A stretch of DNA of 64,000 nucleotides from Meiothermus sp. (GTDB lineage: Bacteria; Deinococcota; Deinococci; Deinococcales; Thermaceae), in NCBI RefSeq assembly GCF_026004115.1, contig NZ_BPIM01000001.1:2708501-2772500 (forward strand), in the 5' to 3' direction. Below the pieces are notes generated by a model. It was not told the origin of the DNA. It saw only the letters and a program-made list of their open reading frames with translations, and did not search any database. Both the position numbers and the translations under genes were made by a program. Position 1 is the first letter of the stretch. Every line of letters begins with the position of its first letter. This document shows positions 4,849-8,046 of the stretch, one piece after another.

Positions 4849-4877
4849 TTGACGCAAACCCCAGGGCTTGCTACCCT
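4849..4877 (+). promoter_or_regulatory. Promoter of the trp leader-trpBA operon
   Basis: TTGACG (4849-4854) and TACCCT (4872-4877) are separated by exactly 17 bases, a near-ideal sigma-A promoter. The predicted transcription start, about 7 bases on, falls 2-3 bases before the ATG of the leader peptide at 4887. The leader peptide would then be translated from a leaderless mRNA. Confidence 0.75.
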
Positions 4878-4886
4878 TTGGTCAAC

Positions 4887-4946
4887 ATGCGGATTCGTAC
4901 TCCCCGCAGCTACAAGTGGCACCACCAGCGCTGGTGGCGTGGGTAG
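4887..4946 (+). CDS. trpL: trp operon leader peptide (attenuator)
   Basis: A 19-codon reading frame, MRIRTPRSYKWHHQRWWRG. It has Trp at positions 11, 16 and 17, three of 19 residues, against roughly 1% in ordinary proteins. It starts within a few bases of the predicted transcription start. A terminator hairpin follows 37 bases after its stop, and trpB starts 187 bases after its stop. That is the classic layout of ribosome-mediated attenuation: low charged tRNA-Trp stalls the ribosome at the Trp codons and lets transcription continue into trpBA. The function is inferred from this layout; no homology search was possible. The same stop also closes a 72-codon frame antisense to the aminopeptidase start, which I do not consider real. 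Confidence 0.8.
   Translation: MRIRTPRSYKWHHQRWWRG
4922..4937 (+). promoter_or_regulatory. Pause/anti-terminator stem inside the trp leader
   Basis: Bases 4922-4929 (CCACCAGC) and 4930-4937 (GCTGGTGG) form a perfect 16-base palindrome. Its 3' arm contains the tandem Trp codons 16-17. AGCGCT at 4928-4933 recurs at 4969-4974, and CTCGAG at 4948-4953 recurs at 4984-4989. Both are self-complementary, so either pair could form an alternative helix to the terminator. The exact set of competing structures was not computed. Confidence 0.5.
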
Positions 4947-4983
4947 GCTCGAGCGTACCTTCTAAGGCAGCGCTTGGGCTTTT

Positions 4984-5012
4984 CTCGAGGTGTTGGCCTC
5001 GAGTTTTTCTTT
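4984..5012 (+). terminator. trp attenuator terminator
   Basis: The stem CTCGAGG (4984-4990) pairs with CCTCGAG (4997-5003) around a 6-base loop and is followed by the T-rich run TTTTTCTTT (5004-5012). It lies between the leader peptide and trpB, so it should abort transcription when tryptophan is plentiful. Confidence 0.8.
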
Positions 5013-5023
5013 GTTAGCTAACG

Positions 5024-5100
5024 ATAGTCCATAGTCGATAGTCCATAGTCGATAGTCCATAGTCCATAGTCGATAGTCCATAGTCCATAGTCGATAGTCC
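5024..5100 (+). repeat. Tandem heptamer repeat upstream of trpB
   Basis: Eleven consecutive heptamers, each ATAGTCC or ATAGTCG, fill 77 bases between the attenuator and the trpB ribosome-binding region (AGAAGAGGT, near 5121). The order is C,G,C,G,C,C,G,C,C,G,C by last base. Every unit begins on the same phase with no interruption. Variation in copy number would change the spacing from terminator to trpB without touching coding sequence. Confidence 0.95.
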
Positions 5101-5133
5101 AACGACCATAAACCCCCTTTAGAAGAGGTATTC

Positions 5134-7175
<2,042 letters not shown>

Positions 7176-7185
7176 AATCAGGCCG

Positions 7186-8046
7186 ATGAAGCGCATTGTG
7201 CAGGCTGAGTGTCTGGCGTACATCGCCACCCTGCCCGAGGCTGCTTTTCCCCTCATTTACCTGGATCCGCCGTTCAATACCCGCAAAACCCAGCAGCGCC
7301 GCCGTATTCGTGCGGTGGCCGACGCACAGGGGCCACGCAGGGGTTTTGCGGGCAGGCGTTATCGCACCGAGGAGCTTCCGGCCCCGGTCTATCCCGATCG
7401 CTACGACGACTTTGTGGCGTTTCTGCAGCCCCGGCTCGAGCAAGCCTACCGCCTGCTGACCCCCCAGGGCTCGCTTTTTGTGCACCTGGACTATCGCGAA
7501 GTGCACTACGTGAAGGTGCTGTTGGACCAGATTTTTGGTCGCAGGAGCTTTATCAACGAAATAATCTGGGCCTACGACTACGGTGGGCGCTCCAAAAACC
7601 GCTGGCCAGCCAAGCACGACACCCTCCTGTGGTACGCCAAAGACCCACGTCGGTACACCTTCAACTACGAGGCCATCGACCGCATCCCCTACCTGGCCCC
7701 CAAGATGGCCGGGCCAGAAAAGGCTGCTCGAGGCAAAACCCCCACCGATGTCTGGTGGATGACCATCGTGCCGACCTCATCCAGGGAAAAAACCGGCTAC
7801 CCCACGCAAAAGCCCCTGCGCCTGTTGGAACGCATCGTGCGGGTTCACTCCAACCCCGGCGAGACAGTGCTGGACTTCTTTGCGGGCTCCGGCACTACCG
7901 GCGAGGCGGCTGCTTTGAATGGGCGGGGTTTTGTCCTGGTGGACCAAAGCCCTGGGGCGGTGGCCGTGATGCAGCGTAGACTGGCCCCCTTCAAACCTGA
8001 GATAATCAATCCCGATGCGCCCCATCCTGTACCACAAGCTCGGTAA
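7186..8046 (+). CDS. Orphan beta-class DNA amino-methyltransferase (N6-A or N4-C)
   Basis: 286 residues. The catalytic motif LIYLDPPFN (D27-F30) comes first, and the AdoMet-binding FFAGSGTTGEAA (about 231-242) near the C-terminus. This order marks the beta class of N6-adenine and N4-cytosine methyltransferases. YPTQKPLRLLERIV just before the AdoMet motif is the usual motif X. No restriction endonuclease or specificity subunit is near, so it looks like an orphan, perhaps regulatory, enzyme. It starts 10 bases after trpA and its 3' end overlaps the next gene by 32 bases, so it is probably expressed with the trp genes. The target site cannot be read from the protein. Confidence 0.9.
   Translation: MKRIVQAECLAYIATLPEAAFPLIYLDPPFNTRKTQQRRRIRAVADAQGPRRGFAGRRYRTEELPAPVYPDRYDDFVAFLQPRLEQAYRLLTPQGSLFVHLDYREVHYVKVLLDQIFGRRSFINEIIWAYDYGGRSKNRWPAKHDTLLWYAKDPRRYTFNYEAIDRIPYLAPKMAGPEKAARGKTPTDVWWMTIVPTSSREKTGYPTQKPLRLLERIVRVHSNPGETVLDFFAGSGTTGEAAALNGRGFVLVDQSPGAVAVMQRRLAPFKPEIINPDAPHPVPQAR

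Follow-up and report, generated by a model that had tools for sequence, protein, structure and literature searches.

The trpBA genes of the Meiothermus window (the whole stretch of DNA analysed here, 64,000 nucleotides) are preceded by a short, Trp-containing leader ORF, and comparison of this leader with its counterparts in other Deinococcota indicates that selection is acting on the amino acids of the peptide and not on its Trp codons alone. Amino acid leader peptides are usually thought to be important through their regulatory codons only; in the leader described here most of the peptide is conserved, across three families of a deeply branching phylum, and on mRNAs that apparently have no 5' UTR. 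The reading that we favour, with slightly better than even confidence, is that of a cis-acting leaderless leader of trpBA which needs its own amino acid sequence, the nascent chain assisting a stall of the ribosome near the last conserved Trp codon. The features of the locus are the following.

4849-4854, plus strand: -35-like element TTGACG, read in the sequence
4872-4877, plus strand: -10 motif TACCCT (TAnnnT), with a 17-nt spacer from TTGACG and 9 nt before the ATG
4884-4885, plus strand: predicted 5' end of the transcript, from the -10 spacing alone
4887-4946, plus strand: leader ORF MRIRTPRSYKWHHQRWWRG*, ATG at 4887, 19 codons, read in the sequence and conserved in relatives
4896-4937, plus strand: conserved peptide core RTPRSYKWHHQRWW, positions 1-14, from the alignment of non-Thermus leaders
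4922-4937, plus strand: hairpin A, the palindrome CCACCAGCGCTGGTGG (CCACCA-GCGC-TGGTGG), from the minimum-energy fold
4945-4981, plus strand: hairpin B, beginning at the leader stop codon, 12-pair stem, from covariation
4984-5008, plus strand: intrinsic terminator, hairpin C CTCGAGGT-GTTG-GCCTCGAG (4984-5003) then T-run TTTTTCTTT, from a terminator scan and comparison with relatives
5024-5101, plus strand: tandem heptamer array ATAGTC[CG], 11 copies, between terminator and trpB
5123-5128, plus strand: Shine-Dalgarno-like AAGAGG of trpB, read in the sequence
5134-6384, plus strand: trpB (PF00291; 68-99% identical to full-length TrpB of relatives in the order)
6381-7175, plus strand: trpA (PF00290; 4-nt overlap with trpB)

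The sequence-only reading of this region had called a strong promoter, a leaderless 19-residue peptide with three Trp including a WW pair, a palindrome over the Trp codons and a terminator hairpin. The peptide (Trp codons at 4917, 4932 and 4935), the palindrome and the terminator hairpin with its T-run were all recovered, the region containing two terminator-like sites compared to 0.3 in shuffled sequences. The promoter elements are present as described, but the word strong was an overstatement, as a sigma-70 scan of the region by an E. coli yardstick returned no promoter at all, because TACCCT is far from TATAAT (three of six matches). TTGACG or TTGACC is found at the equivalent place in most Meiothermus and in several Marinithermaceae-like relatives. 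The heptamer array, which is absent from some relatives and has a single other such place in the genome (C1:322037), is probably outside the regulatory switch. A gene for an N6/N4 DNA methylase follows on the same strand 10 nt past trpA (window 7186-8046).

The motif TAnnnT near a start codon is a known leaderless -10 motif of Deinococcus-Thermus and typically lies 6-7 bp before the ORF (PMC12340547). Of about 71 distinct leaders, 70 have it 5-10 nt ahead of the ATG (6 nt in 42 of them), compared to a baseline of 5.7% of all ATGs in these loci, a comparison to be weighed bearing in mind that the 70 leaders were chosen for having TAnnnT and that about one motif-less leader (such as L054) was excluded. 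None of these 70 leaders has a Shine-Dalgarno-like pentamer. In the window itself the ATG lies 9 nt past the -10 motif, so that the 5' end is expected 2-3 nt before the ATG. Since this geometry is conserved in the absence of a Shine-Dalgarno sequence, translation from a leaderless transcript, as originally proposed, is well supported by the comparison.

The distribution of the leader was addressed with a profile of 28 rows, which at E<=4e-4 matched 81 out of 111 Deinococcota genomes, among which the Deinococcaceae are seemingly under-represented. In the 74 genomes with checked coordinates trpB follows the leader on the same strand at a distance of 61-978 nt (median 95); the remaining seven were absent from our trpB list or had trpB on a different contig, and in those inspected trpB was again downstream. 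Within the genus (relatives such as Meiothermus hypogaeus, M. taiwanensis and M. rufus) a short ORF upstream of trpB encodes a near-identical peptide, and the same holds for other Thermaceae, for Trueperaceae and for a Marinithermaceae-like family, the family names being our own assignment. Because the same peptide recurs upstream of trpB across 81 genomes the observation is far beyond chance. Each matching genome carries one leader locus, the exception being G101 with two matches on separate contigs of a fragmented assembly, which probably represent one locus assembled twice, and the profile search gave no convincing paralogous locus before other genes. A scan for [YF]KWHHQ[RK]W-type DNA in the genomes of 84,980 species showed the motif to be confined to this phylum save for two matches, in Bacteroidales and Fusibacter, which look like chance as the rest of the peptide is unrelated. 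Rfam covariance models gave no relevant match to the leader region even at E<=10, Pfam and NCBIfam gave none to the leader peptide, and in open-access papers we found nothing on Thermus or Deinococcus trp leader peptides or on the motif. In genome G096 a gene for an EamA-family transporter lies between leader and trpB (L149, 155-1045, minus strand), and the leader may therefore control the transporter there.

Alignment of the leaders gave the consensus R-x-R-T-P-R-[SA]-[YF]-K-x-[HR]-H-Q-R-W. Among 50 non-Thermus leaders the core residues R1, T2, K7 and H10 were conserved in all 50, P3 and R4 in 49 and Q11 in 48, while position 13 was Trp in 45, the other five having Phe there and Trp at position 14. 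Codon choice is free, with all six Arg codons used at R1 and all four Thr codons at T2. Over 12 codons the pN/pS of the non-Thermus leaders was 0.25 in frame compared to 2.9 and 1.2 for the two alternative frames, and synonymous sites were close to saturation; the ratio was 0.10 within the Meiothermus group, in frame only, and 0.94-1.0 in the spacer of Trueperaceae taken as control. It should be noted that pN/pS was derived from pairwise counts which ignore the tree; the occurrence of invariant residues beside nearly saturated synonymous sites is tree-independent. The palindrome was dropped as sole cause of the conservation, as codons 1-7, which are outside any hairpin, have a pN/pS of 0.19 (bootstrap 0.15-0.21); part of the HHQ conservation may come from base-pairing with the Trp codons in hairpin A. 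The comparison across relatives proposed earlier, for conserved Trp codons and stem covariation, did show that no non-Thermus leader is without a Trp codon and that hairpin B covaries, but what is conserved is nearly the whole peptide. Many Trueperaceae leaders have one Trp codon only, at the end. The conserved block stops at W13/W14, and the tail beyond it is unconserved and 0-13 residues long (38 in one case). The Marinithermaceae-like genus g19 has kept RTPR.YKW with an ending in AFHHG, which speaks against the model favoured here.

An internal control is provided by the trpE operon, and the earlier statement that the leader serves trpBA rather than trpE is right for this leader but incomplete, as a separate leaderless leader of ordinary type, MVRTAQVKGWWWP* (L151, minus strand, 3012-2971), precedes trpE in this genome. 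In seven Thermaceae genomes the trpE leader before its Trp block is 55% identical, compared to 96% for RTPRSYK at trpB, and conservation of the whole peptide is therefore not simply the norm for Trp leaders in this clade. The trpE and trpB leaders of the phylum share being mostly leaderless, Trp-containing and placed before trp genes, but the peptides are different, and the WWWPG type of the Thermaceae keeps mainly its Trp block, as expected of an ordinary attenuator. Among the trpE leaders (L151, L152-L209) the WWWP(G) type is found in Thermaceae and in the Marinithermaceae-like family. Trueperaceae have a distinct conserved trpE leader peptide, (S/R)WTG(V/A)LGRW, with CGA as the codon of the Arg preceding the last Trp in all copies listed. 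An attenuator was reportedly described in a 1988 paper on the trpE region of T. thermophilus.

At the level of RNA structure, the strand folds better than shuffled sequences (z -2.9). In hairpin A the His-His-Gln codons pair with the Trp-Trp codons, and most Meiothermus-type relatives likewise form this hairpin when the naked RNA is folded. Hairpin B has compensatory changes at five pairs in 13 Meiothermus-group leaders, with a covariation score reached by none of 500 shuffles, and is followed after 2-4 nt by the terminator hairpin, which is conserved in most Meiothermus-type relatives. Outside the Meiothermus-type genera most leaders, including most of those of Trueperaceae and the Marinithermaceae-like family, were without a convincing terminator. 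When a ribosome with an assumed footprint was placed at Trp8, Trp13, Trp14 or the stop codon of 16 leaders in equilibrium folding, no mutually exclusive antiterminator was found: the terminator hairpin had a probability of about 1 at nearly all ribosome positions, the exception being L017, and hairpin B was the sole structure to vary with ribosome position. As folds were at equilibrium and the footprint assumed, a kinetic switch is compatible with these results. Pairing of CTCGAG of hairpin B with a terminator arm was considered as an antiterminator and dropped, as about half of the Meiothermus relatives lack this sequence. The excess of C over G in the spacer was +0.18 in Trueperaceae and +0.22 in f4/g12, compared to +0.03 and +0.07 upstream; such C-rich, G-poor spacers are absent from Meiothermus and Thermus. 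The rho gene is present in all ten genomes tested. The composition of these spacers is only suggestive of a Rho-dependent output.

In the nascent-chain model that we favour, the ribosome would arrive at the Trp codon of core position 13 with Arg12 in the P site and the chain RxRTPR[SA][YF]KxxHQR in the upper exit tunnel, and would pause at that codon in a manner sensitive to a shortage of charged tRNA-Trp or to a ligand. Expression of trpBA would follow from the pause, and termination from completion of the leader. The output in Meiothermus would be the intrinsic terminator about 40 nt past the stop codon, a ribosome at which would cover the 5' arm of the conserved hairpin B; in Trueperaceae and part of the Marinithermaceae-like group, where the spacer is C-rich and G-poor and mostly has no terminator, it would perhaps be Rho. 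Since conservation stops at Trp13/14 and a variable tail follows, we infer that the constrained event occurs at decoding of the Trp codon and not at the stop codon; at that moment residues 1-12 would be in the upper tunnel, and a nascent-chain-assisted pause is therefore favoured. Stalling, its site, its signal and its read-out are in this sense deductions from the pattern of conservation. It counts against the model that no structural terminator switch was found, which leaves the route from stalling to antitermination in Meiothermus unexplained. An extension that we hold tentatively, somewhat below even confidence, is a phylum-wide family of arrest leaders on leaderless mRNAs, whose RxRTPR[SA][YF]K..HQRW chain would sense Trp status and whose read-out would have been swapped between lineages (an intrinsic terminator in Meiothermus and, in the others, Rho or translation) with the peptide kept; if true, the sensor was retained while the output changed from a terminator to something else.

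An ordinary ribosome-mediated trp attenuator, in which stalling at Trp codons is all that counts, the peptide acts as a passive clock and a terminator or Rho reads the ribosome position, would account for the Trp codons at core positions 8, 13 and 14, for a pause-type hairpin A above them, for the terminator and T-run and for the fact that all non-Thermus leaders contain a Trp codon, and an ordinary WWW leader does exist at trpE. We nevertheless consider it unlikely, as it does not predict purifying selection on RTPR..K beside nearly saturated synonymous change, nor the single terminal Trp codon of many Trueperaceae leaders, nor the lack of an antiterminator in the simulated folds. Trp codons alone are also insufficient because in Thermus the RTP core is retained although Trp codons are few or absent. 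The classical Trp-codon attenuator of the sequence-only reading was accordingly not borne out, given also that most other families carrying the peptide have no terminator. A special form of our favoured model, overlapping it, is a TnaC-like arrest peptide which senses free tryptophan or another metabolite in the tunnel, with codon starvation secondary. Conservation spanning the length of the tunnel, an aromatic (W/F/Y) rather than strictly Trp residue at position 13 and conservation in Thermus without terminal Trp codons are all consistent with this form; we rate it as rather unlikely, since the variable tail length places any arrest away from the stop codon and the TnaC signature (Trp12, Asp16 and Pro24 before the stop codon) is absent, the aligned leaders having neither such spacing nor a terminal Pro. 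The leader peptide peTrpL of Sinorhizobium meliloti has been reported to act in trans (PMC7298713), and by analogy a released small peptide, which would here be strongly basic and conserved over most of its length, might do the same. This is improbable for a peptide encoded only upstream of trpB, missing from several Thermus genomes and ending in a tail of 0-13 residues, which would be odd in a functional free peptide.

The leaders of Thermus deserve separate consideration. Their type, MRARTPFAFKRRHGRYRA, has a pN/pS of 0.35. The core is devoid of Trp in eight of the 16 distinct copies, and positions 13 and 14 are never Trp; leaders that are constrained and yet lack the terminal Trp codons are a poor fit to Trp-codon sensing. 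Several Thermus genomes have no leader, and the leaders L057 and L060 are frameshifted. Thermus spacers are G-rich, contrary to those of Trueperaceae and g12. A second -10-like element, TAGGAT, lies between leader and trpB (at loci such as L045, L048, L031, L032 and L023) and is kept by Thermus genomes without the leader. For Thermus alone we give an even chance to the leader being a decaying relic bypassed by this downstream promoter, a scenario in keeping with the retention of TAGGAT in leader-less genomes and with the two frameshifts, but at odds with a pN/pS well below 1.

When compared to known systems the leader shares with E. coli trpL a short ORF with Trp codons, hairpins, an intrinsic terminator (in the window and most Meiothermus-type relatives) and trp biosynthetic genes downstream, but differs in being leaderless, in preceding trpBA only, in the conservation of most of the peptide and not of the Trp run alone, in having no competing antiterminator that we could find, and in that the terminator is missing in most other families keeping the peptide. 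Cysteine-rich leaderless short ORFs of mycobacteria were reportedly treated by Canestrari in 2020. Those ORFs are likewise leaderless, regulatory, located before an operon and rich in the relevant amino acid (PMC4633059), but concern another amino acid and another phylum, and in our leaders conservation extends to the residues outside the sensing codons. With TnaC of the E. coli tna operon (PMC8429421) the leader has in common residues constrained along the length of the exit tunnel, a Trp-related operon and, in some families, a possible Rho-type spacer after the ORF; unlike in TnaC the constrained block ends at an often internal Trp codon and not at the stop codon, the operon is biosynthetic where tna is catabolic, and the leader is leaderless. 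If the nascent chain does act, relatives of Thermus thermophilus would possess an arrest peptide whose translation begins on a leaderless message. The ribosomes of T. thermophilus are favourites for structural work, and the mechanism is therefore directly testable by toeprinting and cryo-EM. In families f2 and f5, which have no leader, an operator-like palindrome is present near the start of trpB, e.g., TAGACAATCGGTCTA (L038, L043, L142, L145, L025-L028), which suggests repressor control instead.
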